From: a virus
DNA length: 44,698 bases
Direction: 5' to 3' (one strand)
IMG/VR virus record: IMGVR_UViG_3300050821_004793
Span: 1 to 44,698 of that record
The position numbers and the translations under genes were made by a program. Each line of letters begins with the position of its first letter. The stretch's first letter is position 1. A model generated the notes under the pieces. That model was not told the origin of the DNA, did no database searches, and worked only from the letters and a program-made list of their open reading frames with translations. Positions 2,580 through 38,446 of the stretch are shown piece by piece.

Positions 2580-2703
2580 CAGTCGCTTTCAACTTCGTGG
2601 TTTCGCATTTATGTGCGCAGTAGGGAATGTGGAACGACCCCTCCCAGCAATCACATCGCTGACCACAGTAAGGGCATTCGTGTTTACAATAGGGACAATT
2701 CAT
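2572..2703 (-). CDS. 43-residue Cys-rich microprotein
   Basis: The start overlaps the integrase stop as ATGA (2700-2703). It contains nine Cys and three His (NCPYCKHECPYCGQRCDCWE, then YCAHKC), enough for two zinc sites. No family is recognised; a protein- or nucleic-acid-binding zinc microprotein is the reasonable reading. Confidence 0.6.
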   Translation of the reverse strand: MNCPYCKHECPYCGQRCDCWEGSFHIPYCAHKCETTKLKATDD

Positions 2704-3749
2704 CGAATCACCTTCACCTTCGGCTCACTGGGCGCTGATTGAATCCGCTCCTGCGTGCGCGTCAGCGCGTCGGTCACGTCCGCCATGTCCTGAATGTCGT
2801 ATCTCCGGAACATGCTCGCCGTCTGATGCCCGGTGATCTGCATCGCCGTGTGCATGCTCACTCCAGGTGTGCGCACTAAGTTGCGTGCCGCACTGCGACG
2901 GAAATCGTGAATCCAAGTATTCGGATAGCCAGCTTCCACTCGCGCTGCGTGCCAGGCTTTACGGAAATCACCAAGACTTTTGCCGTGTCGGTGGAATACG
3001 TATTGACAATCGAGGCGTCGAGCACTTCGCTGACGTTCAATAATGGCACTTAGTTCTCCCACCAGCGGAATCGTCCGCGAGCGTTTCGTCTTGGTGTTCT
3101 CCGCGCGGATCACAACTTCTGAATCGCCGACGTCCCGCCACTGGAGCGAAACCATCTCGTTTTTCCGTCCTCCACATAAATAAAGCCAACGCAGTCCGTC
3201 CCGAAGGTAATCTGGTAAATGCCTTTGGATAGCTTCAAAGTCCGCCGGCTGGAGGAAGTTCTGCCGCACGTTGTTTTCTTGGAGCAGTTCAATAACTGGG
3301 ACACGACTCAACACCTCCTGTTTTTTCGCCAAGCTGAACATCCGCCGCAGCGCCGCCAGTTCCCGGTTGATGCTCGCGTTTTTAAGCCCGTCCGCGAGCC
3401 GTTGCCGGATGTACGCCTGAATCTGCGTCTGGCGGATATCGAGCGCTCTCAGCCCGCCGAAATGCGCGGACAGGGCCTTGACGTTGCGCTGCGCATCCCG
3501 CGTCGAACGATTGCCGCTGACCTCGTAGTCGTACAGATACCCGGCCGCAATTTCCTCGAACATCACCTCCGCTTCGGTCGGCAGGAAACTGCCGGAACCG
3601 ATGCGCTCGATGATCGTCCGCAGCACTTCGCGCGCCTTGCGCTTGTCGGCCGTGCCGGTCGATTTGCGGATGACGCCGTGCGGGGTGGAAATCTTGTACC
3701 ACCAGTATTGGCTGTTCCGCTGCTTGTAGAGGCTGCCGAGGCCGCTCAT
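2700..3749 (-). CDS. int: Tyrosine-family phage integrase
   Basis: It catalyses recombination between attP and a host tRNA-Lys attB through a 3'-phosphotyrosyl intermediate. At 349 residues it is full length. Residues 1-55 form the arm-binding region (SLYKQRNSQYWWYKI), 60-150 the SAM-like core-binding domain, and 165-335 the catalytic domain. The catalytic residues are visible: Arg195 in GGRKNEM, a Lys near 220, His281 and Arg284 in HDFRR, His308 in TGHQ and Tyr317 in RRYDI. It starts by an ATGA overlap with the upstream regulator, so the two are co-expressed. attP is not adjacent but about 1.4 kb downstream, with six small genes between. Confidence 0.96.
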   Translation of the reverse strand: MSGLGSLYKQRNSQYWWYKISTPHGVIRKSTGTADKRKAREVLRTIIERIGSGSFLPTEAEVMFEEIAAGYLYDYEVSGNRSTRDAQRNVKALSAHFGGLRALDIRQTQIQAYIRQRLADGLKNASINRELAALRRMFSLAKKQEVLSRVPVIELLQENNVRQNFLQPADFEAIQRHLPDYLRDGLRWLYLCGGRKNEMVSLQWRDVGDSEVVIRAENTKTKRSRTIPLVGELSAIIERQRSARRLDCQYVFHRHGKSLGDFRKAWHAARVEAGYPNTWIHDFRRSAARNLVRTPGVSMHTAMQITGHQTASMFRRYDIQDMADVTDALTRTQERIQSAPSEPKVKVIR

Positions 3750-5904: not shown

Positions 5905-6113
5905 AGCCGAAATATCACAAAGGTCCGCTGGTTAAGTCGATCGACCTGGTAGCGAACGCGATCGTCGCCGGCAAGTGCCTTTATCTTGGTAGCGGCCGGA
6001 TACCGCTGAACTCGGCGTGGCTGCAAAACATGACGCTGTGGACGCTCAACACCTACGTCGAGCACGGGCGCGTCTGGTACGCGATCGAAAACAAGGAGGA
6101 AGTTAATGGCTGA
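5901..6113 (+). CDS. Hypothetical protein (70 aa)
   Basis: It starts with GTG in a GTGA overlap and ends eight bases inside recT. The content is mixed alpha/beta (LVANAIVAGKCLYLGSGRIP, then TLWTLNTYVEHGRVWYAI). It is conserved in position immediately upstream of recT, but I do not recognise it. Confidence 0.55.
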   Translation: MKPKYHKGPLVKSIDLVANAIVAGKCLYLGSGRIPLNSAWLQNMTLWTLNTYVEHGRVWYAIENKEEVNG

Positions 6114-7122
6114 TTCCAATCAATTTCTTGCACTTTTGGAAAAGGAAGAACCGAAGATCAAGCCGCTCATCGCGCCTTACTTCGACAAAGACCTGTGGTT
6201 TCAAAACGCCAAGGCCATGTGGAAAGCGGTTCAACGCGACGAGAAGCTCCGCGCCTGCTCAACTGAGTCGCTGGTCGGGTGCGTCGAGGAAGCGGCTCGG
6301 CGTGGGCTGGAAATCGGCGGTCCGAATAAGCACTGCGCACCCGTCGCCTTCAAAACGACCGCCATCCTGATCACCCAATGGCAGGGTAAGGTTTTCATCT
6401 GGATGAAATCGGGCGCGATCAAGAAGCTCATGCCGAACGTGGTCTATGTGGGTGATGAGTTTGAGATTTCGAGCGGTGACGACGATCACATCAAGCACGT
6501 ACCTAGTCTCGCGCTCGACGAGCACCCGCCGGAATGGCTCGGCAAGATCGATAACATCGTCGGAGCCTATGCGATTGCAACGCTCTGGTCGGGCGAGAAG
6601 GTCCGTTCATTCGTGACGCGCGCTTATATGAAGCGCCTGATCGAGTGGGTGAAGAAGAAGAACAATGGCGTGCTCGGTTTCGGCTACAACGATTGGATGC
6701 CGGAAATGTTCATGAAGACGGCCGTGCATCGCCTCGATGGCAAGATTCAACCGCCGCCGCACATGGATAAAGACCAGATCGAAGCGTGGGGTCGGGCTGC
6801 TGCGGCAGCCAATATCGACGTCGATTTCACCCGCCTGGGTGAAGATGATCCCGATCCGGATATGCCGACCGCGGCTCGTACCGCCCACGTCGAGGTCGTA
6901 CCGGACAACGGCAAGAAACCGCCTAAGGCGGATCTAACTCAGAGCGATCGCCCGGTCACCATGAGCGAAGCGAACGAACTTTCCGAAATCGCCGAAGCGG
7001 CCGGTCTATCGTTCAAGAAAATCAAGGCGGTGCTCAAGGAATTCGGCGTCGAAGATTTCGAGTTCCTCAAGGCTTCACAAGTGGCAGACGTGGGCAAGGC
7101 GCTCGCCGCGGCTGCGCAATAG
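6106..7122 (+). CDS. recT: RecT-family single-strand annealing protein
   Basis: It anneals complementary single-stranded DNA made by a partner exonuclease, promoting phage recombination and concatemer formation. The RecT core spans about residues 25-225: SLVGCVEEAARRGLEIGG and NKHCAPVAFK, ILITQWQGKVF, GAYAIATLWSGEKV and a basic WMPEMFMKTAVHRL near the end of the core. The tail of about 100 residues is acidic then helical, as in other RecT proteins. At 338 residues it is slightly longer than E. coli RecT. AAGGAGG six bases upstream supports the ATG at 6106. The exonuclease (7264-7803) and RusA follow in the same operon. Confidence 0.94.
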   Translation: MADSNQFLALLEKEEPKIKPLIAPYFDKDLWFQNAKAMWKAVQRDEKLRACSTESLVGCVEEAARRGLEIGGPNKHCAPVAFKTTAILITQWQGKVFIWMKSGAIKKLMPNVVYVGDEFEISSGDDDHIKHVPSLALDEHPPEWLGKIDNIVGAYAIATLWSGEKVRSFVTRAYMKRLIEWVKKKNNGVLGFGYNDWMPEMFMKTAVHRLDGKIQPPPHMDKDQIEAWGRAAAAANIDVDFTRLGEDDPDPDMPTAARTAHVEVVPDNGKKPPKADLTQSDRPVTMSEANELSEIAEAAGLSFKKIKAVLKEFGVEDFEFLKASQVADVGKALAAAAQ

Positions 7123-18084: not shown

Positions 18085-18477
18085 TTAACCCCTGGTAAAG
18101 GCCGCCCATAATTCCTGGAGGGAGAGCATCTGGCGATCGAGCTGCGCCTCGAAGCTCCCGGACTCGAACGGGTCTTGCGGTTCAAATACGGCCGGCTGAA
18201 TCAGCGGCGTTTGCCGGATGATCAGCAAAGTTCCCGCCGCGGCCAGGGGCACCGCGAATACCACGGTCCCACCGTTCGCGTAGGTGTTGAGATGCGGATC
18301 GAGCGTGCCTTGTACGGTGTACGCGGAGTTAAAAAGCGGATTCGTCACGTTGCCCAGAGAATCGGTGTATTGGACAAAGAGATCCGTCTTCGCGCAGAAG
18401 TAGTACGGAAAGGCGTAAGAGGTCGCAATCCCATCGGTGGAGTAGCTGATTGAAACCGGCTGGCTGCTAACTGCCAT
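18085..18477 (-). CDS. Fibre N-terminal/adaptor-like virion protein
   Basis: About 130 residues. QPVSISYSTDGIATSYAFPY and a later QTPLIQPAVFEPQDPFES match the particle-binding N-terminal domain of T7-type tail fibres, ending in an EAQLDRQMLSLQEL helix. Here that domain is a stand-alone protein with the fibre body in the next gene, as in phages that use a separate adaptor. GTG at 18480 or ATG at 18477 could start it; both overlap the terminase stop. Confidence 0.75.
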   Translation of the reverse strand: MAVSSQPVSISYSTDGIATSYAFPYYFCAKTDLFVQYTDSLGNVTNPLFNSAYTVQGTLDPHLNTYANGGTVVFAVPLAAAGTLLIIRQTPLIQPAVFEPQDPFESGSFEAQLDRQMLSLQELWAAFTRG

Positions 18478-18479
18478 CA

Positions 18480-20009
18480 CTATACCTCGAACGGATTGCG
18501 GTCGTAGCCGTCGGCGAACTGCTGCCGCTTCCGGGTGAGTTCGGGACTTGCGCGCAGGGCCGTGCGCGCCTCGCCCGCGCCTAAGAGCATGTATTGAGCG
18601 GCTTCGGCGACGTGCGAGAACATGTCCTTACTAGGTACGTCGTGATAACGCTCCGCGCCCGCGACCCGCACCCGTTTGTAGTGATAACCGCCGGCCAGCG
18701 CCTTGCGGAGCTTCTGGCAGTTGGGATGGATGATCATCCCCGGCTCACCTTCCGTCATCTTGTTCAGGAAGTAGGCGAAGGTCTCGCGCCGCTTGGTCGG
18801 GTCGTTGGTCGATGCGGGTAGAGCCTGAATCCCGGCCGCGCGAAGCACTTGGAAGGGTGTGCCCTTGTCGGTCTGCGCTCGCGTGTCGCCCGCCGGATCG
18901 CCGGTTATCGTCGCGATCTTGTAGTCCGAGAACTCCTCGCGAATCGTGCGCCCGAGGAGGTTACCAAACTCAAGTGCTCCCATGTCCTCGGTAACGATTT
19001 CCTTATAGATTCGCCACGCCCCCATAACTGTACGCTGAGCGAAAGTGGCGGCTGGCGTAAGTCCGAAATCGATGCCGATATGGATAGGGAGCCCGCGATT
19101 AAGAGCAAATTCTCGACAGTGCATGTTGTCGCGGTATTCTGGGTAAACTGGTTTTCCATCGAGTACAAAGCCATATTCGCCATCGACGTACACCTTGATC
19201 CATTCGATCGATTTGCCCGACATCAGGCGCTCGTAATAGCCGGGAGTCAGGTTATCCAGATTTTCCGCCCCTTCGCCGCGACCGCTGGGCTGCGCATAGA
19301 AGCGTTCCAAACGCTGCCCCTCGGCGAGTACGCCGCGCTCCCGCAGCTTTTCCGCCAACTCTTCGTTGCGCGCGGCAATCTCCGGGTCGGGGAAGTCGGC
19401 CATCTTCGCCCACCAATGATCCGTATCGGGTGAGTTAGTATCCATGACGATCTGCGGTGCCGCACAGCCGTGGAGCACCTTGCCGGTCTTGGGATCGCGC
19501 ACCGTGCGCGGGAAGCGGCCGACGCGGGCGGTCAAGCCGTCGAGAATTGCCTTGGGCAGCTCGCGCGCCTCGTTGATCCACGCATCGCTCAATTCGAGTG
19601 ACAGCAGGTGGCGCAAGTCGTCAGGCTGATCAAGCGCTAAAAAGATCACTTCCCAATCGACCTTCGGGTTCTCGGTCACGATGCGGTGCATCGGCGGTCC
19701 CTTCTCGCGCCAGCGCCCGACATTCGGCGGCACCCACATCTGCCACGTCTTGATCGTGGTGGTCGTGAGTTCGGGATAGGTATTGCGGATGATCGCGGTG
19801 CGGCGGCGGATGACGCCATCGGGGCCGGGCCGCTGGAGCGTGAAGTTGCGGAGGAGCTTTGCGATACAGGCGGTGCTCTTGCCCGAGCCAAAAGGTCCGC
19901 GGATACCGCAAAGCAAAGCGTCGCTACGCACGAACTTCGCCGTAATCGGCCCTGGCGGATTCCAGGTGAAGTTGATCGGCTGCTCGACTTGTTTGACGGT
20001 TGCTTTCAT
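18480..20009 (-). CDS. terL: Terminase large subunit
   Basis: The ATP-driven motor and nuclease that packages DNA into the prohead. 509 residues, normal length. Walker A is GPFGSGKST (38-46). The Walker B region is LELSDAWINEARE with Asp142 and Glu147. The RNase H-like nuclease begins with HIGIDFG (Asp314), then TGDPAG (Asp371) and SKDMFSHVAEA near the end. The start overlaps the ejection protein's stop as ATGA. It lies about 19 kb from terS, at the other end of the late operon, roughly as in T7 where gene 19 follows gene 16. Confidence 0.95.
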   Translation of the reverse strand: MKATVKQVEQPINFTWNPPGPITAKFVRSDALLCGIRGPFGSGKSTACIAKLLRNFTLQRPGPDGVIRRRTAIIRNTYPELTTTTIKTWQMWVPPNVGRWREKGPPMHRIVTENPKVDWEVIFLALDQPDDLRHLLSLELSDAWINEARELPKAILDGLTARVGRFPRTVRDPKTGKVLHGCAAPQIVMDTNSPDTDHWWAKMADFPDPEIAARNEELAEKLRERGVLAEGQRLERFYAQPSGRGEGAENLDNLTPGYYERLMSGKSIEWIKVYVDGEYGFVLDGKPVYPEYRDNMHCREFALNRGLPIHIGIDFGLTPAATFAQRTVMGAWRIYKEIVTEDMGALEFGNLLGRTIREEFSDYKIATITGDPAGDTRAQTDKGTPFQVLRAAGIQALPASTNDPTKRRETFAYFLNKMTEGEPGMIIHPNCQKLRKALAGGYHYKRVRVAGAERYHDVPSKDMFSHVAEAAQYMLLGAGEARTALRASPELTRKRQQFADGYDRNPFEV

Positions 20010-24388: not shown

Positions 24389-25864
24389 TCACCATCCCCA
24401 CGCCGGATCGCCCGGATGCTTTAGCCGCTCTGCCTGCCATTCTTTCGCTACCGCATCAGGGACCGCCGGCGGCAGCCCCGTAGGCTTCGGCGTGGCGGGC
24501 GCTCCTTCGCCGGGACGTGGAACTGCTTTGAGCGCCGCTTGCATCTTGTCGAAATAGAATTGCGGCGGCTCGGCTGGATGGCCGTAGATGGATGCTTGGT
24601 AGATGCCAATTGCCTTTGCCGCTGCTTGTGCAAAAGCTCCTTTATGGTGGTCTTCGTAACGCACGTCTTCGTGGCTGGTTACAAAGTAGTTTTGTTTAAG
24701 TTGATTGCCTGCGGTGATTCGCGCCTGTCCGGCGGGTGTCTTCATCTGCTCGATCGCTTTGTCGATCGTCGCCCCATACCGATCCTTATCGGCTGGACTC
24801 AAATTCTTGTTGGCCTCTTCGGCGGCTAGGTCGGCCTTGAGCGTGCGCGCGTCGTCAAGGCTGCTGAGATTCTTAATCTTGTTCTCGATAAGTCCTTGCG
24901 TTGCGGGCGACGTTTGCACTTCGTAGGGTCGTCCGGTGATATGCGCGAACCACTCGTTACCAAGTACTCCCGCCTCGTGGTCCTTCACGGCTTGAGCCAT
25001 ATCCGCCTGCCCGTGTTGCTGGATGTACTGCTGCTGGTAAGCGACCGCCTTTGCCTCAGCGGCGCCCGAGGCGATGTCGAGCTGCTTGTGCGCCTGACTC
25101 ATCGTATTGTTCGCGAGGCTAATTGCTGCCATCTGCTGTTGGCCATCGATCATCCCCGGCGGCAGCGACTTGATGTAATTGCCGATCTGGGCTGGATCGT
25201 TTACCGCGACCGACTGCATTCGCTTTTCGAGCTTGGCCTGCTGATAACCAGCTAGGATTTCATTCGCGACGTTCGGATTCTTGCCGTAGATCGAGTTGAC
25301 CTGAGTGACGAAATTCTGCTCGGCCGCTTGTGCGGTTGGGCCATCGGTGAAATTGCCCTTCGCATCGATCGTGTAGTTCGCGCCCGACAGGTTCGCCGCC
25401 TGCTTGCCGTTGAACACCACCTGCTGATGGTGCTCCACCATCGTCTGCGCAGCCCCGGCCTTGAGCGCTTCGTCCTGATACAAGCCGACCTGCTTCGGCA
25501 ATTCGGATTGGAGGTAACCCGCAATGTGCGCGTTCTGCGGGTCCTTGAGCGCCGCCTGAAGAATCTCGTTGCTCTTGAGTTTGAAGGCGTCGGCCTGCTG
25601 GTCGCCGGGAAGTTGCTTGACGTCGACGAGCGCCTGAGTGAGCCCTTGTCGCACTCCATTAGTGACGGTGTCCGCGTCAAGAATCTGCTTGTGCTGATAC
25701 TGAACGGCGAGGATTTTGCCGAGTTCACCGAGTCCTTCACCGACTTGGGCTTGCTCCTTTGCCAAAGGCGCGGGAATCTGCGGCGCGGTGCGGGCATAGC
25801 GCGGGGGAACGTCCTGCACCGGGACGGTCTGCTCGATCTGTGGGATTTGCGCGAAGCCGCCCAT
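24389..25864 (-). CDS. gp15-like internal virion (ejection) protein
   Basis: About 491 residues, helical, Gln/Ala-rich (LGKILAVQYQHKQILDADTV, later MVEHHQQVVFNGKQAANLSG). In T7 gp15 lies in the same gene position and forms the middle ring of the internal core, extending into the periplasm on infection. No catalytic motif is seen. The N terminus is Pro-rich. ATG at 25864 (TGATG) or GTG at 25867 could be the start. The call rests on position, length and composition. Confidence 0.72.
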   Translation of the reverse strand: MGGFAQIPQIEQTVPVQDVPPRYARTAPQIPAPLAKEQAQVGEGLGELGKILAVQYQHKQILDADTVTNGVRQGLTQALVDVKQLPGDQQADAFKLKSNEILQAALKDPQNAHIAGYLQSELPKQVGLYQDEALKAGAAQTMVEHHQQVVFNGKQAANLSGANYTIDAKGNFTDGPTAQAAEQNFVTQVNSIYGKNPNVANEILAGYQQAKLEKRMQSVAVNDPAQIGNYIKSLPPGMIDGQQQMAAISLANNTMSQAHKQLDIASGAAEAKAVAYQQQYIQQHGQADMAQAVKDHEAGVLGNEWFAHITGRPYEVQTSPATQGLIENKIKNLSSLDDARTLKADLAAEEANKNLSPADKDRYGATIDKAIEQMKTPAGQARITAGNQLKQNYFVTSHEDVRYEDHHKGAFAQAAAKAIGIYQASIYGHPAEPPQFYFDKMQAALKAVPRPGEGAPATPKPTGLPPAVPDAVAKEWQAERLKHPGDPAWGW

Positions 25865-26391
25865 CACCAGAGCCCGTCCATCGAAGTGCCGCCGCTATAG
25901 TTACTGTTGCTGCCGTAACCTCCCGTTCTTCCCAGCAGGAGCCTAGTGCCGATGCCGCCGAAGGATGAGATGGCGCTGCCAACGCCGCCTAAGATGCCCT
26001 CCTGCGTCGGATGAATCTGATTCGCCTGCCACTGCTGGAAATTCGCCTGGTTCTTGAGGCTCGACGATTCCAGCTCGCCCGCATACCAGGTATTGAGTTC
26101 GTTCATGCGCGCGTTGGTCGCGCTCTGCCGGATGATGTGCTGGGTGCTGCCGCCTTGGCCGATATTGGCGCCCGCGATGCCCGCCGCTTGCTCGCCGAGT
26201 AGCGCCGTGTTTTTACGGATCTGCTCAGCCTCATTCGCCGCGCCCGCGTCCGAGGCCTGCTTAGCCTCCTGATTGAGCGCCGTCGCGTTGTATTCGGCGA
26301 TATTCTTCTGCTGCTGGGCCTGCGACGAGCCGGAAAGTCCCTGCATCGCGGCCGACGCGGCAGTGAGCCCAACGATGGCGGCGACTTCCAT
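25864..26391 (-). CDS. gp14-like internal virion protein
   Basis: 175 residues starting MEVAAIVGLTAASAAMQGLS, a hydrophobic N-terminal helix, then QAQQQKNIAEYNATALNQEA and a Gly/Ser-rich tail. This is the size and pattern of T7 gp14-type proteins, the first to enter the outer membrane during ejection. It is coupled upstream by TGATG to the GNAT-like gene. An upstream frame giving 230 residues overlaps that gene and was rejected. Confidence 0.75.
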   Translation of the reverse strand: MEVAAIVGLTAASAAMQGLSGSSQAQQQKNIAEYNATALNQEAKQASDAGAANEAEQIRKNTALLGEQAAGIAGANIGQGGSTQHIIRQSATNARMNELNTWYAGELESSSLKNQANFQQWQANQIHPTQEGILGGVGSAISSFGGIGTRLLLGRTGGYGSNSNYSGGTSMDGLW

Positions 26392-26810
26392 CAGCGGGTC
26401 ACCCGCGCGTAAAGGCACGCGTCGTAGCCTTGATAGAAGTTGAACATCACGCCTTCCATCTCGAAGCCGAGCAGTTCCGTCACCCAGCGATGGCCCGCGA
26501 TGTTGCCCTTGAGCACCGTCGTCTCGATCCGCGGGATGCGCTGCTCGGCAAACCATGCGCGCATCGCTTTGTTGAGGCTGAGGAAGTGCTTAGGCGCGAG
26601 CACCGGATCGGTAAGCGCCCAGCAGCGATAGACGCCGGGACTAAGGCACATGAGACCGACACAGGCCACCACGCCTTCATCGACCCAACCCACAAAGGAT
26701 GGCCCTGATTCCTTCATGCGCTCGCAGAACTTGACAGCATCGTGCGCCTCGCTGACGCCCTGTCGCCCGAGCTTCTCAAGATGCCACGGCTGTAGTTCTT
26801 CAATCTTCAC
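26391..26810 (-). CDS. GNAT-fold virion protein (gp13 position)
   Basis: 139 residues with a GNAT acetyltransferase pattern: N-terminal IEELQPWHLEKL, central FVGWVDEGVVACVGLMCL, then AMRAWFAEQRIPRIETTVLK and AGHRWVTELLGFEMEGV. Proteins of this kind commonly occupy the slot between the tail tube genes and gp14 in podoviruses, as T7 gp13 does. The R/Q-x-x-G-x-G/A acetyl-CoA loop is not clear, so enzymatic activity is doubtful. The start is a GTG inside the upstream gene's end. Confidence 0.7.
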   Translation of the reverse strand: MKIEELQPWHLEKLGRQGVSEAHDAVKFCERMKESGPSFVGWVDEGVVACVGLMCLSPGVYRCWALTDPVLAPKHFLSLNKAMRAWFAEQRIPRIETTVLKGNIAGHRWVTELLGFEMEGVMFNFYQGYDACLYARVTR

Positions 26811-28704
26811 TGTCTAAATTGGGATAGATCCCCACGATCGTCACCGGGAACGGTTCGTCGTTGATGTAAGTCAGCCGTCCTTCCACTTCGTAACCGCCGG
26901 GCCAGTTGAAGGCATAGGTCTCCTCGGGCCAGAGGCCGTTATAGACGGTGAGCGCCTGGTCCATCGGATCGTCGGGGTCGCGAAACTCCAAGTCGTCCAT
27001 CACCGTCTCGGGCGGGTCGCTCAGCTCCTTGTCGGGGTCCTCGCGTCCGGCTTTGCCGCCGAGTGTGTTGAGAAAACGGAAAGTGATATCGGTGATGCGC
27101 TTGACCTTGCCCTGCGAAGTACCGAGCGCGCCGCCCGCCTCCAGCGGCATCGTGGTGAGGCGGCAAGTCTGCGGCAAGCCAACTTGGACGATCTTGGCTG
27201 GCCATTGGAGCTTGATCGTGCCGCCGGTCACGGTGCAGTCGGGATGGCGCGCGCCGTCGGTGAGCACCTTCACGGTCATCCCTTCGAGGTAGCCGAGTCC
27301 GGTTATGGTTTGTGTCGACGCGCCGTTGTAGGTCGATCCCGAATCCGAATAGAAGGCGTCGGTCGCGAGATTGCCGCCGGTCAGAAAATGCGGCCCCAGA
27401 TACTCGACGTAGCGCCTGGTGACGCTGTTGATGGTGCGGTTGACGATCAGCCAGAGGTCGTCCTGATTCTTGGCCGGCGCCGGAATGCAGGCGATCGATT
27501 CGGGTGAACCGACCATCGGATGGCGATGCCACGCCGTAACCTGCTGTTCTTCGTTGAAGGTAAAGCCGATCAGATCGCCGCTAGGTGGAGGCGGTGCGGG
27601 CGGCGTGAATAGGTGCAAACTTAGGATGCCCTCGACTGACTCATCGTCGCGCTTGGTGAAGGTGAGCAGATCGGGACTGGTGAAGATGGCGCTATCGAAC
27701 GTCGGCGTTCCGGCGTCGCCGAGCGTCACGAAAAGAGCGCCGGTCCACACGAAGTTGGTGCCAACATCCGGCGCCGGTATCGGTCCTACTACCGACCAGG
27801 TGGCGCCGTTATCGGTTGATGTATAAGGCTGTCCGGTAGGCGTCCCGACCCAGGCGAATAAGTTGCCCCCAGCCCCACGGATTACCGATTGGGTCTGGCC
27901 GCTGCCGGGAGCAACGCCCAAATCGAGGCGCGTGGTCCACGCTGCCCCGATGGGCGAAGTAGCAATCCCTAGATGGCCATTGGCTAATTCCCCAGCGACG
28001 ATCCATTGGTTGCTCTGGATGTCCCACAGCACCTGTCGGCGCTCTTGTGAGATTAGGATGCCGCTGGCGTTTTCGGTCCATGTAAGCCCGTCTGCTGAGT
28101 AAGCATTGACAGGATGCTGCGTCGAAAACGCAATGAAACCGGAACCGTTAGTTCCTATCCAGGCATATTCAATTTCGGTGGCGCTGGTGAAACGCAGGTT
28201 CCACGGACCAAGCGGACTCGTTGCCGAGTAAATCCTACTCTTCTGCCCCGCAACGAATGCGCGCCAGTCAATCGCGACATAGGTCGTACCATTAAACGCA
28301 ATCCCGACCGCTTTAAAACTGTCTGCCAGGTTGGCCCACGTCCAAGTAACTCCATCGGCAGAGGTTCCTACGACGCCTTGCGTATTCGGCGAACCAGATA
28401 TACTTCCGACGGCGACAAATTGCGCGCCGTCCCAAATCACGGAATTGAGGCCCCCGCTTTCGCCGAGAACTGTCAAAACACCAAAGTTCGTTGTGCTCGG
28501 CAAACTCCGTGAGATGAAGGTGACACCGCCGTCCACCGAGGAAAATAATTGACTCTCGCCTACCACTACATAGGTCCGATTCCCGTCCCAGGCCACGTCG
28601 GTGAGTATGTTGCCGCTGTTATCGCCCGGATTAGCGATCGTCCAGGTGATGCCGTCGGGCGAGGTCAGAATCAGGTTGTCGGTGCCGGTCGCGATAAGCA
28701 GCAT
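26800..28704 (-). CDS. Beta-propeller fused to the C-terminal part of a gp12-like tail nozzle protein
   Basis: 634 residues. Residues 1-365 contain eight Asp-box-like turns (such as TSPDGITW at 14, TSADGVTW at 114, YSADGLTW at 202 and TSTDNGATW at 295), consistent with a sialidase/BNR-type propeller. A Pro hinge (TPPAPPPPSG, 367-376) follows. From 377, DLIGFTFNEEQQVTAWHRH and DDLWLIVNRTINSVTRRYVE are what normally follows the '...IWMIR' segment inside one intact nozzle protein. The upstream gene ends exactly at IIWMIRQ. So this gene is the second half of the nozzle with a propeller attached. The ATG is four bases past the upstream stop and in the +1 frame relative to it. Confidence 0.78.
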   Translation of the reverse strand: MLLIATGTDNLILTSPDGITWTIANPGDNSGNILTDVAWDGNRTYVVVGESQLFSSVDGGVTFISRSLPSTTNFGVLTVLGESGGLNSVIWDGAQFVAVGSISGSPNTQGVVGTSADGVTWTWANLADSFKAVGIAFNGTTYVAIDWRAFVAGQKSRIYSATSPLGPWNLRFTSATEIEYAWIGTNGSGFIAFSTQHPVNAYSADGLTWTENASGILISQERRQVLWDIQSNQWIVAGELANGHLGIATSPIGAAWTTRLDLGVAPGSGQTQSVIRGAGGNLFAWVGTPTGQPYTSTDNGATWSVVGPIPAPDVGTNFVWTGALFVTLGDAGTPTFDSAIFTSPDLLTFTKRDDESVEGILSLHLFTPPAPPPPSGDLIGFTFNEEQQVTAWHRHPMVGSPESIACIPAPAKNQDDLWLIVNRTINSVTRRYVEYLGPHFLTGGNLATDAFYSDSGSTYNGASTQTITGLGYLEGMTVKVLTDGARHPDCTVTGGTIKLQWPAKIVQVGLPQTCRLTTMPLEAGGALGTSQGKVKRITDITFRFLNTLGGKAGREDPDKELSDPPETVMDDLEFRDPDDPMDQALTVYNGLWPEETYAFNWPGGYEVEGRLTYINDEPFPVTIVGIYPNLDSED

Positions 28705-28708
28705 ATGA

Positions 28709-30886
28709 CTATTGCCTGATCATCCAGATGATGCTGTCGGGTTCCTGCTGGAAGGCCAGCGCTTTGCACCCGTTCTTCTCGAAAATGTGATTCGCCAGCG
28801 CCGCCAAATCCTCGGACTGATACTGGTCGGTAAAGAATTGATACTTCATGATGCGGAGCTTCTGGCCGCTGGTCTGAATCCAGAGCAGCGAATAGCCGAT
28901 CAGCACCGGCTTGATCGGGCGCGAGCCGTGGCGCATCTGCGCCTTGCTGGCGATATTGCCGGGGCCAAACGGCTGTCCGGTGTTGATCTCCTGGATGACG
29001 TGCTCCGCGCCCTCGGTGCCAACGACCAGCACGCGGCCCTCGATCAGCCATTCGATGTCGTCCTGGGTCGGAAGCTGGATCGCGATTCCCATGTCGGCGG
29101 TGGCGACGCCGCCGGGGGTGAGCGCGCTGAAGTTCTCGAAATCGGCCGCCACCGAGGTAAAGACGTAGCCCTGCCGCGCGAAGCACAGCCGCCCGCGAAA
29201 GAACGAGGTGGTCTGCGGGTAGCCATCGCGATTGTTGAAGGCGCCGACCGCCCAATTTGAGGTGGCGTTCTGGGAAAAGACGACGGCTTTCGGCAGGCGA
29301 TTTACGGTGCCTGCCGCGTCCTGAATGATGACGTCGGCGGTCGCCGTCCACAGGCGGTTATCGGCCGTGCCGCCCGAGACGTAGGGATCCCACGAGGTGC
29401 CATCGACTGCGCCCCCCGTACCGTCGCCGTCGACGTCGTCCTGAAAGAGCGCGAAGGTGTTACCGGACTTGGTATTGACCCGATAAAAGGCATCGTTGAC
29501 CTCAGGCATGCCCTGCACGTCTTTGATAAAAATCAGGTCGCCATTATTCGCGGTGGTGGCAACGTCCGTCGTTACCACTGGCGGCTTGGCGGCCGAAATC
29601 GCGGTGATGTTCACGGCCGCACCAAGGGGATCGGGATTGCGCGCGGTGAGTCGCACGAAGCCCGAACCGTTGTCGCGATATTCCCAGAGAATCCCGTTAT
29701 TGCCGCCGCTATCGTAAGCCTGACCACTTAGATGCGTCGGCGGAATGCTGCCGGTCACGGGCGCTGGTGGACTGCTGCCGGCCACCGTTCCGTTCAAGGC
29801 TTCATAGGTGACGCCATTAAATCGCCGCCGCGCGCCTTTCTTGATGCTGACGCCGACCTCCCAGGGCCGAATCGTGCGAATGTTCTGCTGCGTAAGCTGG
29901 AAGAGCGATCCGATCAGCCCCGGATCGAAAATATCGGCGCTCGCGGTCAGCGTGATGCCGAGGCCGGTTTGCGCGCTGGCAAAGACCATCGGATCTGTGC
30001 CGGGGTTGGCGGTGGCGAAAGGACCGCCTATAAAGTTGACCGGCGCGAGCGTCCAATGCGTCGGGCCAAAATGCGACAGCTTGTAGGCCGGAATCGTGGC
30101 GCTGCGATGCGTGAGATAGAGCACGTCCGCCGATTGCGTGTAATCGAGCTGGAACATGCCGTTGGCGTCGAAGAGCGAGGCGGCGGCGTAAGGCGACGCA
30201 ATCTCGAAGGGCGTCGCGATACCCGCGCCACTCAGGCCATTGCCGAGCGTCACCTGCTGAAGGCCGACGCCCGAATACACGGTCGAGCTCACTGCATAAT
30301 AAGAGTTGGGCGCCCACATCGGCCGCTGCAGGCACTGCCACGTCACGGTGCCGTCGGGCGGGCTGAACTGGCCGTAGGTGGTGCCAAATAGAGACGCCCA
30401 GACCGCGTTGGAGGCGCTGTTCGTGGTGCCGGTGGTGCGCGCGATTTGCACGTTGCCGTTGGGGTCAAGAATGATCGTGCCGATGCTGACGGGGGTTGAG
30501 GGCGCACGGGCCGGAAAGCCGAGATTGGTCCAGGTCAGCGGCCCGTCGATTGTGGTGCCTCCAACTACCGGGTTGAAATTCAGCGAGACGAGACTTACCT
30601 GCGCGTGGTTCTGATAAAACCGCATGTAAAAATCGCCGACCTCGATGATGAAGGCCTGGGCAACGCTGCGGATAAATGGAATCAGCGCGGTCGGCTTATT
30701 GGAGAATTTGACTTCGGCAACGAAGCGCGTGCCCGGACGGCGACGCGCCGGACCCTGCACCATCGGGATAAAGTTCTCGAGGCGAAAGCACGCGGTCTGG
30801 TAGCCCTTCTGATCGGTGCGGCTCTCCATCGCGGGCGACCATTCGCCCGAATTGAAGGCCGGCAGTCCGGGTGAGGCTTTAGCCAT
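28709..30886 (-). CDS. gp12-like tail tubular (nozzle) protein, N-terminal part
   Basis: 725 residues. The N terminus PAFNSGEWSPAMESRTDQKG and ARRRPGTRFVAEVK are family hallmarks, as are FFRGRLCFAR, then TQDDIEWLIEGRVLVVGTEG and SGQKLRIMKYQ. T7 gp12 forms a hexameric nozzle at the tail tip. Here the sequence stops at QQEPDSIIWMIRQ, where homologues continue into a strand and the AWHRH segment; that missing part is encoded by the next gene. The start overlaps the gp11-like stop as TAATG. Confidence 0.88.
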   Translation of the reverse strand: MAKASPGLPAFNSGEWSPAMESRTDQKGYQTACFRLENFIPMVQGPARRRPGTRFVAEVKFSNKPTALIPFIRSVAQAFIIEVGDFYMRFYQNHAQVSLVSLNFNPVVGGTTIDGPLTWTNLGFPARAPSTPVSIGTIILDPNGNVQIARTTGTTNSASNAVWASLFGTTYGQFSPPDGTVTWQCLQRPMWAPNSYYAVSSTVYSGVGLQQVTLGNGLSGAGIATPFEIASPYAAASLFDANGMFQLDYTQSADVLYLTHRSATIPAYKLSHFGPTHWTLAPVNFIGGPFATANPGTDPMVFASAQTGLGITLTASADIFDPGLIGSLFQLTQQNIRTIRPWEVGVSIKKGARRRFNGVTYEALNGTVAGSSPPAPVTGSIPPTHLSGQAYDSGGNNGILWEYRDNGSGFVRLTARNPDPLGAAVNITAISAAKPPVVTTDVATTANNGDLIFIKDVQGMPEVNDAFYRVNTKSGNTFALFQDDVDGDGTGGAVDGTSWDPYVSGGTADNRLWTATADVIIQDAAGTVNRLPKAVVFSQNATSNWAVGAFNNRDGYPQTTSFFRGRLCFARQGYVFTSVAADFENFSALTPGGVATADMGIAIQLPTQDDIEWLIEGRVLVVGTEGAEHVIQEINTGQPFGPGNIASKAQMRHGSRPIKPVLIGYSLLWIQTSGQKLRIMKYQFFTDQYQSEDLAALANHIFEKNGCKALAFQQEPDSIIWMIRQ

Positions 30887-31521
30887 TAGCCGGGCAACCT
30901 CGATAGCAACCAGGAATTATCGGGCAGCGGATCGGGCGGCAGTTCGATCGAGTCCGCGCGGATCGCTGCGATGATGGCCTTTTGATATTGCGCATTCGCA
31001 CGATCGCGCTTATCCCCCATTTGCGTCATGTCCTCAGCCAGTTTCGCAGCTAATCGACACCCGAACGCCTCCACAAAGCCCGGATCGAACATGGTCGGAT
31101 CGGTGATGCGTGCGATGTAGCGCAGCGGCAGTGGACCTAGCGGCGTGCTCGTGCCAAAGCCCGTCACCTGATTGCTGACGATGGTCTTGCCTTCAATCTT
31201 CCAATCAGCCGCTTCGCTGGTAACGACACCGAGCCAACGCTGCGTGCCGGGAGACCAGCGCCCCGCCTGAATTACGCGGATATTATCGTCAGGGAGTTGA
31301 TAGGCAGCGAAGTAGCCAAACGCGGGCGGCGTAGTGAGCGCGGGCAACAGGACACGCTTGACCGCGAAATTCCAGATGTGCTCGCGCAGCTCTGCGTCGC
31401 GCTCGATCTCATAGATGGCGAGTGCCGAGCGCGCCGCCTTCACGTTATCGTTGAGCGTCGTGATGCGCTGTTGGCCCAACAGGGTCAGGGCCACGTTGAC
31501 GATTTCGACATCCGAAGGCAT
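30886..31521 (-). CDS. gp11-like tail tubular protein A (gatekeeper)
   Basis: 211 residues. EIVNVALTLLGQQRITTLND followed by ARSALAIYEIERDAELREH is the signature N terminus of T7 gp11-type proteins. These form a dodecameric adaptor ring between portal and nozzle and help close the channel. KLAEDMTQMGDKRDRANAQY gives the C-terminal helices. Gene order with the nozzle is as in T7. Confidence 0.9.
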   Translation of the reverse strand: MPSDVEIVNVALTLLGQQRITTLNDNVKAARSALAIYEIERDAELREHIWNFAVKRVLLPALTTPPAFGYFAAYQLPDDNIRVIQAGRWSPGTQRWLGVVTSEAADWKIEGKTIVSNQVTGFGTSTPLGPLPLRYIARITDPTMFDPGFVEAFGCRLAAKLAEDMTQMGDKRDRANAQYQKAIIAAIRADSIELPPDPLPDNSWLLSRLPG

Positions 31522-32403
31522 TTATTCAATCCGTTCGAGTGAAAATGTCGCTGTGCGACCACCACCAAGCGACAGCGCAAGAGAGCCGCCGGAGTTTTGA
31601 AACGCTATCAACTCCAAGTAATCGCCACTATTGAGCGCGACGAGAGCACTAGATGATATGATGGTGGTATCCCCTGGATTAGCGCCGATGTCGATTTGAC
31701 CCGCCCCTGTGAGTGTGGTGCCGTTCAATTTGAAGAGTAGATAACGAACGCCAGTAGCGTTGCTTGCATAACTGATGCTTCCCGACACTCGATATTTTCC
31801 TGTGGCCGGCGCTGTAAGCCGTGTCGGGTTAGCATTGTTGTAATAACTCGTGTCATCCCACTCGACGGAACCACCAGAGGCGGTTACGAAGGTGACGGCC
31901 GTGAGCGTGTTATTCGCGAGACTTTGAGCATTGGTTGTCTTTATCGACGCGCTACCAAGCGATCCGCCAGACCCCGCGGCTCCGGTTGGTCCTGTACTCC
32001 CGGTCGCTCCCGTGGCGCCGGTAGAACCCGTTGGGCCTACAGCGCCAGCCGCCCCAGTGGCACCTGTAGCTCCCGTCGACCCGGTTGGACCCACTGATCC
32101 GGCGCCACCTGGGCCAGTCGGCCCAACTGCACCCGTAGCTCCAGTTGCTCCAGTAGGACCAACTGCCCCAACACTCCCAGTAGACCCGGTTGCTCCTGTT
32201 GGCCCTATCGCGCCTGCGCCTCCAATTGGTCCGGTCGGCCCAGCCGCCCCCGCCGACCCAGTTGCCCCGGTATTTCCGGTCGCGCCGGTAGGCCCGGCCG
32301 TTCCAGTTCCCCCGGTCGGACCCGGAGTGCGACGCTGTAGCGCTAACTCGTAGTTGATGAGATCCTGTCCGGTCAGCGCGACCTGCTGAGGGTTATTAGC
32401 CAA
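31522..32403 (-). CDS. Collagen-like fibre protein with C1q/TNF-like head
   Basis: 293 residues. Residues 28-147 are about 40 Gly-X-Y triplets rich in GPTGATG, which would form a triple-helical stalk. The C terminus (about 150-293) is a compact beta domain with [18 protein letters not shown] and [19 protein letters not shown], resembling C1q/BclA trimeric heads. Located between the capsid and tail-tube genes, it is likely a virion surface fibre. It starts with TTG overlapping the previous stop, so expression may be low. Confidence 0.78.
31963..32322 (-). repeat. Coding collagen-type Gly-X-Y repeat tract
   Basis: About 360 bases of imperfect 9-base units encoding G-x-T/G-A-T/G-P-T triplets. 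Such tracts expand and contract by slippage, so length polymorphism between phage copies is expected. Confidence 0.8.
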
Positions 32404-33549: not shown

Positions 33550-34455
33550 CTATTTGAGGCAGTTGATCTGGAACACCTTCTTCTCTTGCAGGCGGCAGGC
33601 GCCGAAACCGGCCCAGATACCGACCTGCCACGGCGCCATCTCCAGCCAGTCGGCCTGCACGATCTTGGTCGTGATGCCTTCCCACGTCCCGAAGTGCATG
33701 CCGCTCGCCGCGTACACCGGCACCATCCGGTAAGTCCCGGTCGACTCGAGCTGCAGCAGTTCCGAGTGAATGAAGTTCATGCCGAGGAAGCGCGTGACTC
33801 TGCCTTCCTGGAGCACCGGAGCGTCGGGCTGGTTAAAGTCGCGGTTGATGACCTGCGCTTCGGCCAAGAGGTTGTCGAGCTGGGTCGCCTGCGCGATGAC
33901 GTGAATCGTGTCCATCTCCAGGTCGACTTCGTTCTGGAGCAATTGACGCCGTGCTTCACGCAGCTTCGCCACCGTCAGGCCGGTATCGGCCGACGCGCCA
34001 AAGTTCGAGGCGATGATGTTGCCGGCGGGAAAGGCGGTCGTGTCGTTGCCGAGCTGGCCGGTCTTGCTGGTCTCGAAGAACGCGCGGATACACTCGGCGT
34101 CGTGCTGGCGGTTCATGCCCGCCATCAGCGATTCCACGTAAGTGCCGCGCGGGTCGGCCTGCGTCATCAATTCATCGAATTTGTCAAAGAGGACGTATTC
34201 GTTGAAGAGATTGGGTACGACCCACCGATCGTCGTGGAACACATCGGCATACGAGACCGGCTGCCCGCGCGTAGTGCGCCGCGTGGGAGTCAGCAAGCCG
34301 ATTTGTTTGACGGCCTGGGCCTGCTGCGAGCCGGTATGCACGCCCTGCCGGAAGCTCTGAACGATGCGGGCGGTGCGCTGCTGGGCTAGGAGTTCAAAGA
34401 GTTGGGTGAATTTATATTCGTAAAGTGCGACAACCGAGGTGTCGACGGTAGCCAT
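33550..34455 (-). CDS. Major capsid protein
   Basis: 301 residues. ALYEYKFTQLFELLAQQRTA at the N terminus and FNEYVLFDKFDELMTQADPR, then LREARRQLLQNEVDLE and a C-terminal FGACRLQEKKVFQINCLK match the podovirus HK97-fold capsid family found directly after a scaffold gene. It follows the scaffold and portal genes, has AGG upstream of the ATG and a hairpin-rich leader, as expected for the most expressed late gene. Confidence 0.85.
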   Translation of the reverse strand: MATVDTSVVALYEYKFTQLFELLAQQRTARIVQSFRQGVHTGSQQAQAVKQIGLLTPTRRTTRGQPVSYADVFHDDRWVVPNLFNEYVLFDKFDELMTQADPRGTYVESLMAGMNRQHDAECIRAFFETSKTGQLGNDTTAFPAGNIIASNFGASADTGLTVAKLREARRQLLQNEVDLEMDTIHVIAQATQLDNLLAEAQVINRDFNQPDAPVLQEGRVTRFLGMNFIHSELLQLESTGTYRMVPVYAASGMHFGTWEGITTKIVQADWLEMAPWQVGIWAGFGACRLQEKKVFQINCLK

Positions 34456-36651: not shown

Positions 36652-36755
36652 AATCCGGCCTGCTTTTCTAGCCGTCTGACTCGCTGTCCAAGTACAAAAG
36701 CTACCGCTAGAATCATCGGCCACGTCAGCGCGATTATTTGAAAACCGAGTATCAT
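36648..36755 (-). CDS. 35-residue membrane microprotein
   Basis: ATGA overlaps at both ends: with the portal stop at 36752-36755 and the next start at 36648-36651. MILGFQIIALTWPMILAVAF followed by VLGQRVRRLEKQ is one membrane helix with a basic cytosolic tail. Unknown role. Confidence 0.5.
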   Translation of the reverse strand: MILGFQIIALTWPMILAVAFVLGQRVRRLEKQAGL

Positions 36756-38446
36756 CCCTGTTGCGCTCCCTGCTGTTGTGGCGCGCTGGTCGCGATCTGC
36801 TGCGCCTGCGCCAGATTTTTCGCCGCCCCCGCCGCCTGCGGCGCCGCCTGCACCAGCGCCTGCGCGTTAGCCTGCTGCGCCTTCTGATCCTGCAACGACT
36901 TCATCTGCTCGGGACTTAGGAGCAAGTCGGACCTTAGACCGTTCACGTCGCTCACTTCGCGCGCCATTTTCTCCCAGTCGAACACGTCGAGAATTTCGGG
37001 ATGGCCCGCTTCGGCGACCGGGATCAACTGCTCCAGCGTCCGCTGGATGGCAATGACATCTTGGGCGCGTTGCAGCCGGTTAAGTGGCGACTGGTACTCC
37101 ACCTTTATAAGACCGCCGGTACGTGCCAGCGAGTCGGGCATAGGGCCTAGAGAATCAAGCACGCCAGCGTGAAATAGAATATCGATTTCTCGATTAATGA
37201 CATTGCCTAAGAACTCGCTTTGCTGGCGGCCCATCGCTGGAGTCAGTAGTATCCCGCGCTCTTCCGCGATCTGGAGGACTTGCGTAGCGGTCATGTTCGG
37301 ATTCTCCAGCAGCATCTCGAACACGTTGCCATACGCTGCTTCCTTGATGGCCTTGCGCCGGTACTCCATCTTCTCTTCGGTGATGTCTACCTTGGCACCG
37401 GAAATGTAAGGTATAGCCAGAGGCTTACCATCGTCGGATACCATTCCATAATTGAGAGCACCAGGACGAACACTGAAAGCATTGCCAGATTCAGGTAACA
37501 GAACAGGGGGGTCTGCGGCTCTCTGCGCATTGTTCAGGTCCGTCCTACTCATCTCATTGAGCATCTTCACATCGGCCAGCGCAATAAAGAATGGACTCCG
37601 TCCATAGACCTCCCTGGGTCCGACCGTGAACCGGCTCGTCGCATAGGGATTCATCCGGTAGCCGCCCTCATCTACTATCTGTATAGGATTGACGCACAGG
37701 TAGCATTCCTCCCACGGCATCCCCCGCCAGTCCTTCCTGCCGTACTCGGGGTTTCTTCGCGGCTTGACGACGTGCAACCACTCATAGACGCGATGGCTCT
37801 GCGCCGGATTGTCGTAGCTCGCCTTTACTCCCGGCGGCACCTGGTCCGCGCCCCACTTATCCACCGCTTGCGTTGCCGTGAACTCAAACTTCCGAAATAC
37901 AGTATCTATGACGCCGACGTGATTTTCGGCGAAGTAGAGATCCTGAAGGGGCACCGCTCGATACCGCAGAGTTGACCCCAGCGCGTCATCGACGAACACA
38001 CTGCCCGTTCCAAAGGCGATAAGGCCAAGCATGTTCTCGTGAGCCTGTGAAGCAAAATTCGCCCTAGGCGAGTACCGTGCTGCGAACAAGATGTCGTTGA
38101 GATTTTCAAGATAGGCTCGCGCCTCCCGATCGTCCTTAAGACTCGGGTCAGTCGGCGTTAGCTGGTGCCACTTCTGCGTTCGCGGAAATAGCATGCTCTC
38201 GAACAGCGCCGCACAGTTCTCAAGAGCCTGAGGAGCAGTTGAGTCGAAAATATATTCCGTCCTTCGCTCAGCCTGACTCACCCCCAACACCGCCCGCTGA
38301 AACACGTTCTGATGCGGCAATACCCTTCTCGCGATGTCCGCCCAGTAACTCTCCCAGTTCCACCTTAGATCCTGTAGCTGCTGAAACTCCCGCAGATACG
38401 CCCGCGCCCGCTCGTTCTGCTCTGTGCTCGGTTCAGCCATCGACAT
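36752..38446 (-). CDS. Portal (head-to-tail connector) protein
   Basis: 564 residues of the T7 gp8-like family. WNWESYWADIARRVLPHQNV near the N terminus, FPRTQKWHQLTP, then a C-terminal Gln/Ala-rich tail. It forms the dodecameric ring at one capsid vertex through which DNA is packaged and ejected. The ATG at 38446 overlaps the small upstream gene. It is followed by scaffold and capsid genes in the usual order. Confidence 0.92.
   Translation of the reverse strand: MSMAEPSTEQNERARAYLREFQQLQDLRWNWESYWADIARRVLPHQNVFQRAVLGVSQAERRTEYIFDSTAPQALENCAALFESMLFPRTQKWHQLTPTDPSLKDDREARAYLENLNDILFAARYSPRANFASQAHENMLGLIAFGTGSVFVDDALGSTLRYRAVPLQDLYFAENHVGVIDTVFRKFEFTATQAVDKWGADQVPPGVKASYDNPAQSHRVYEWLHVVKPRRNPEYGRKDWRGMPWEECYLCVNPIQIVDEGGYRMNPYATSRFTVGPREVYGRSPFFIALADVKMLNEMSRTDLNNAQRAADPPVLLPESGNAFSVRPGALNYGMVSDDGKPLAIPYISGAKVDITEEKMEYRRKAIKEAAYGNVFEMLLENPNMTATQVLQIAEERGILLTPAMGRQQSEFLGNVINREIDILFHAGVLDSLGPMPDSLARTGGLIKVEYQSPLNRLQRAQDVIAIQRTLEQLIPVAEAGHPEILDVFDWEKMAREVSDVNGLRSDLLLSPEQMKSLQDQKAQQANAQALVQAAPQAAGAAKNLAQAQQIATSAPQQQGAQQG

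Follow-up and report, generated by a model that had tools for sequence, protein, structure and literature searches.

A short-tailed phage nozzle encoded in two genes, with a variable domain at the cut

The window, a 44,698-base IMG/VR virus record of a short-tailed phage analysed here at its full length, encodes its tail nozzle in two adjacent genes, and a foreign domain sits at the start of the second half. We consider it fairly probable, at roughly 0.7, that this is a two-chain nozzle arisen by gene fission inside a propeller blade, where the former hairpin tip would act as a port that holds exchangeable, probably surface-binding domains on one tether. Few parts of short-tailed phages are as conserved as the nozzle, and the solved examples are, to our knowledge, single chains; a nozzle cut inside a propeller blade and carrying an exchangeable domain there represents a new form.

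Results and Discussion

Two adjacent genes encode one nozzle

The nozzle genes, their parts and the neighbouring genes referred to below are located as follows.

26391..26810 (-): small protein at the acetyltransferase position; PHROG_4177, 1.9e-12; placed as after intact nozzles (synteny)
26800-28704 (-): second gene, chain 2, 634 aa
26800..27579 (-): nozzle C half, chain 2 residues 376-634; from PHROG_376, 8ck1 and BcepC6B gp12
27580..27606 (-): Pro-rich linker TPPAPPPPS, chain 2 residues 367-375; from sequence, with low AlphaFold2 (AF2) confidence from residue 369
27607..28704 (-): predicted Asp-box beta-propeller, chain 2 residues 1-366; from motif count, AF2, Foldseek and weak Pfam scores
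28705..28708 (-): junction; TAG stop, then TCAT, then ATG of the second gene
28709..30886 (-): nozzle N half, chain 1, 725 aa, ending in SIIWMIRQ; from PHROG_376, 8ck1 and alignment to intact nozzles
30886..31521 (-): adaptor (T7 gp11-like); PHROG_394, 5.4e-51; directly upstream of the nozzle as in intact podoviruses
31522-32403 (-): collagen-like gene, 293 aa, just upstream of the adaptor
33550-34455 (-): capsid
36752-38446 (-): portal, Head-tail_con
18085-18480: fibre anchor, 131 aa; similar to tail fibre families in their N-terminal anchor only
2700-3749: tyrosine integrase
6106-7122: RecT

Chain 1 is the 725-residue gp12-like protein stopping at IIWMIRQ that an earlier note on this DNA had described, and, as was also stated there, the two genes lie in different frames with four bases between them. 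The junction reads CAGGCAATAGTCATATGCTG, in which ribosomes could bind at an AGG about 10 bases 5' of the second ATG. Profile comparisons likewise bear out the proposal that the nozzle continues in the next gene from residue 377. The 712-position profile PHROG_376 matches gene 1 from its position 1 (5.1e-117), and its positions 470-711 are matched by gene 2 residues 376-634 (3.5e-62). The sole PDB sequence match of either protein is the Carin1 tail nozzle 8ck1, of which residues 305-501 correspond to gene 1 residues 527-724 (5.8e-50) and residues 503-823 to gene 2 residues 375-629. Both halves are collinear with the profile and with 8ck1, congruent with the earlier view of one nozzle encoded in two genes, and the C half is 48% identical to that of BcepC6B gp12. 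Assembly from two chains is strongly implied by these matches. Chain 1 comprises the N-terminal platform strands, the tip-domain region and the propeller blades as far as the opening strands of the blade that the break interrupts, and the C half of chain 2 supplies the remaining strands of that blade, the last blade and the C-terminal platform region. Modelled alone with AF2, the C half reached pLDDT values mostly below 50 at residues 369-455 and 512-612, as would be expected if it needs chain 1, though a shallow alignment would account for these values equally well.

The break coincides with the two-residue turn of a beta-hairpin in aligned intact homologues. HTVC204P, an intact relative, runs continuously across this position (IVWCVRTDGQLLGFTYQREQQVTAWHRH), and the aligned turn is IVWCVR-TDG-QLLGFTY in HTVC204P, VVWLVR-SDG-ALLSMTY in Carin1 and IIWMIRQ, stop, PPPPSG-DLIGFTF in the window. 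T7 gp12, a hexameric gate protein, combines a platform, a propeller of seven blades, a tip and a fibre dock; its C504 lies in blade 7 and its C554 in blade 1 (PMC6702177). Profile comparison with it is confident for residues 337-462 only; a weak, forced alignment past Carin1 column 448 places the break at about T7 517-524, after C504 and before C554, from which we infer that the cut hairpin would belong to blade 7 of the nozzle propeller. The T7 gate-2 loop (D478) was considered as its counterpart and dropped, the hairpin falling after C504 in this alignment.

The nozzle pair also occupies the expected genomic place, right after the adaptor and ahead of small internal-virion genes (PHROG_418), within a minus-strand tail operon ordered portal, capsid, collagen-like gene, adaptor, nozzle pair, small gene at the acetyltransferase position and internal virion genes. 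Further features of the window were observed alongside. A stretch of about 125 aa in the tip region of chain 1 (30215-30592, residues ~99-224) carries a repeated W..LG.P.WAP-like motif and is missing from the related locus L001 and from several intact nozzles, representing a second variable place. The listed frame at 25864-26556, a PHROG_418 protein, overlaps the previous gene in another frame with its first ~50 residues and probably has an internal true start. Other members carry several collagen-like stretches, and the tyrosine integrase together with RecT suggests that the phage is probably temperate.

The split is shared by related phages

Relatives were retrieved by IMG/VR scans, keeping the best 80 loci per scan; many of the contigs are fragments, and all split members are metagenomic. 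The same break was found in L001-L005, L008, L010, L006/L014 and L012, comprising four related phage types. L001-L005 have a common junction, WMIRGDVT, with the stop overlapping the ATG as TGATG, and over 3.6 kb no difference separates L001, L002, L004 and L005, which come from separate samples. L008 and L010 read WMIRGDNT and TAATG. In L006 and L012, WMIRNGNLK is followed by a 136-138-aa PHROG_644 gene (L006:3102-3518; L012:3343-3753) and then by a 747-752-aa protein ending in the nozzle C half; thus, the cut also takes whole genes. The N half of these two ends in MIRNGNL and the C half starts with GMRDGNL, so that a copy of the ancestral turn is retained in both, and the split may plausibly have begun with a small duplication. 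The second frame stands at +1 to the first in the window, and at -1 in L001 and L008.

An HMM test of the N tail and C start was used to classify 157 loci, including the best 80 by the window C half, which gives intact genes no advantage, and the best 80 by an intact query, which does give them one. Intact nozzles accounted for 151, all with a gap of at most 25 residues as for a tight turn, and six were split. None of the 151 intact loci has a large insert at the hairpin, and split and domain always occurred there together, neither being seen alone. The split nozzles and the window form a single clade (support 100) in a tree of 134 sequences, nested among intact nozzles beside BcepC6B-like ones. 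On these comparisons, the split is real, inherited and of single origin. Since the stop and the frame change interrupt what would be a single continuous polypeptide and are kept in relatives, we class the window nozzle as a two-gene variant rather than as an ordinary PHROG_376 member.

The same data bear on whether the break is an artefact. A one-base change in TCAGGCAA could fuse the open frames of the window, as expected if a sequencing or assembly error, or decay to a pseudogene, had broken a gene that is really one frame, and the earlier note had named a single fused frame in raw reads as the finding that would overturn it. That objection fails, given that the break recurs in related assemblies with differing frame relations. 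It is common to four phage types, with an extra gene in L006 and L012, its junction is identical across repeated assemblies, and the N halves of L008 and L010 differ by 56 synonymous codon changes and one nonsynonymous change, pointing to strong purifying selection on the nozzle halves. An error is accordingly rejected for the clade, its probability being negligible. Programmed ribosomal frameshifting, joining both halves into one nozzle chain or doing so in a minority of products, would be allowed by the overlap of the window's open frames by a few codons. The frame relation is however not constant among relatives, no common slippery site was seen in them, a whole gene lies between the halves of L006 and L012, and an ATG directly after the stop (TGATG, TAATG, TAGTCATATG) fits translational coupling instead. 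We rejected frameshifting too, as very improbable; with differing frame relations, neither a one-base error nor a shared frameshift explains the split.

The domain at the break is variable

A strict pattern recovers six Asp-box-like motifs in chain 2, compared to 0.36 in shuffled sequences (maximum 3 in 1000), and with two degenerate motifs the total is eight. Residues 1-366 were predicted by AF2 as an all-beta repeated fold (mean pLDDT ~77), and Foldseek matched it to the Asp-box propellers of GH74, sortilin and YCF48 (TM 0.56 to YCF48 by target length). The eight-motif Asp-box propeller of the earlier note, separate from the nozzle and spanning the first ~366 residues, is thereby upheld as a prediction. 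Pfam gathering scores were not reached (Sortilin-Vps10 17.1 versus 33 bits, BNR 12.7 versus 27), and a PDB sequence search with the propeller profile gave no match. The structural relatives include many viral proteins, and propellers akin to it are part of further phage proteins, some of which begin, as judged by eye, with a tail-collar-like N-terminus.

As a general rule, a propeller at the break does not hold. It is present in the window, but the corresponding domain of L006 and L012 has no detected propeller homology and no PHROG, Pfam or phage-collection match, and AF2 of the 752-aa protein of L006 gave a mean pLDDT of 31; the break domain need thus not be a propeller. The sequence between the conserved halves varies far more than they do. 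L001 and L008 share 96% of the adaptor, 85% of the N half, 28% of the domain and 79% of the C half, the window and L008 share 80, 75, 34 and 72%, respectively, and L006 and L012 share 88% of the N half, 67% of the domain and 93% of the C half; terminase and portal are at 72-86% between these phages. Judged by these identities, the break domain is replaced or hyperdivergent.

A conserved anchor with a variable head is typical of receptor binders, and the split nozzle displays such a pattern, with a conserved virion-anchoring part and a hypervariable, exchanged outer domain, from which we infer that the break domain may bind a receptor or glycans. An enzymatic role, as a GH74- or sialidase-type glycosidase degrading host polysaccharide, is suggested by the Foldseek ranking, where GH74 xyloglucanases come next after 8ck1. 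GH74 enzymes have however two propellers and the window one, neither RIP nor RLP (the sialidase RIP motif) is present in chain 2, no Pfam enzyme family is matched, and something else takes the same place in L006 and L012, leaving an enzyme a poor candidate.

Alternatively, one nozzle from two genes could carry the variable domain as an added dock for fibres or spikes, changing with the fibres exchanged and not itself binding the host. In the T7 and SU10 nozzles, fibre docks sit close to where this propeller ends (PMC6702177, PMC9509320), and a fibre-anchor-like protein of 131 aa, whose neighbours vary, is encoded separately in the window. Yet replacement of the domain contrasts with conservation of the anchor (54-67%), so that a matching partner would lie elsewhere, and related propellers are found inside other, partly fibre-like, proteins. 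We regard a dock as unlikely, albeit a better candidate than an enzyme. The anchor is encoded apart from the fibre, followed by a collagen-like 461-aa protein and then a Big_7 protein of 557 aa. Having fibre genes of its own (the anchor and collagen-like fibres), the phage need not use the propeller as its main receptor binder.

Proposed architecture and meaning

Returning to the two-chain nozzle with a single-tether port, an ancestral single-chain gene would have been cut once, at a hairpin turn in the central seven-bladed propeller; both halves are kept in order, and the Pro-rich linker attaches a foreign domain to the N-terminus that the cut created on the second half. The second gene would be translated by coupling or re-initiation straight after the first, presumably giving about 1:1 chains that complete the interrupted blade by strand complementation and assemble into the usual hexamer. 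The extra domain would then be suspended by a single tether where the hairpin tip used to be, in six copies per tail, and may contact the host surface or glycans. We propose that such contact is why the domain is replaced and diverges fast, and that one tether rather than two permits a large domain to be carried and exchanged with the nozzle undisturbed. A more specific form, where strand complementation completes the cut blade and the port swaps unrelated host-binding domains by recombination, tying the ejection gate to six receptor binders, is tentative, with odds slightly below even.

A conserved fission of single origin with an exchangeable domain would represent a new route to evolve host recognition, with the cut hairpin as a site tolerant of domain display on the tail, and would connect a surface-binding domain to the DNA gate in a testable way. 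As a warning, annotation will label the nozzle halves as two proteins.

Comparison with known systems

The single-chain PHROG_376 nozzles (BcepC6B gp12, Carin1 gp36/8ck1 and epsilon15 gp12) are homologous to both window halves, in the same order and at the same operon place after the adaptor; the window differs by the cut at one hairpin turn and by the foreign domain on the second half. T7 gp12 is likewise a single chain, whose corresponding hairpin (~517-524 by the forced alignment) has no extra domain (PMC6702177). Propeller blades of the SU10 nozzle extend into accessory domains and a fibre-dock loop, which resemble the extra domain of the window; however, these insertions leave the chain continuous and the gene unsplit (PMC9509320).

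Two-gene nozzles as such are not unique to the window type. In Xanthomonas phages CP2, Olaya and others (10 records), the nozzle lies in two adjacent overlapping genes, matching PHROG_376 3-271 and 282-707; for CP2 these span L023:2983-6086 (AB720064 15292-18395), where PHROG families 20269 and 15566 match the halves nearly end to end. Unlike in the window, the cut falls near the tip domain, the first gene has a Gly-rich end, and there is no swapped propeller, so that the CP2-type split is, by this comparison, an independent event. The literature searched yielded no description of a two-gene nozzle of either type. The earlier claim of no described nozzle arranged this way stands as regards the literature searched, and is qualified by the two genes of CP2-type phages. 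Two further candidates were set aside. The halves in Pseudomonas phage UFJF_PfDIW6 (L028:1530-3999, OM418631) overlap in the profile and the first ends in out-of-frame-looking residues, the two overlapping 'tail tubular B' genes probably reflecting a frameshift in the record, and L045:2562-2762, a nozzle C-half fragment on a Myxococcota MAG contig, lies in a broken and recombined stretch and was uninformative.

Finally, the window domain resembles the Asp-box propellers of sortilin Vps10p, GH74 and YCF48 in its repeated S-x-D-G-x-T-W motif and predicted fold, and differs from them in lacking a catalytic family match and in being attached to half of a phage nozzle.
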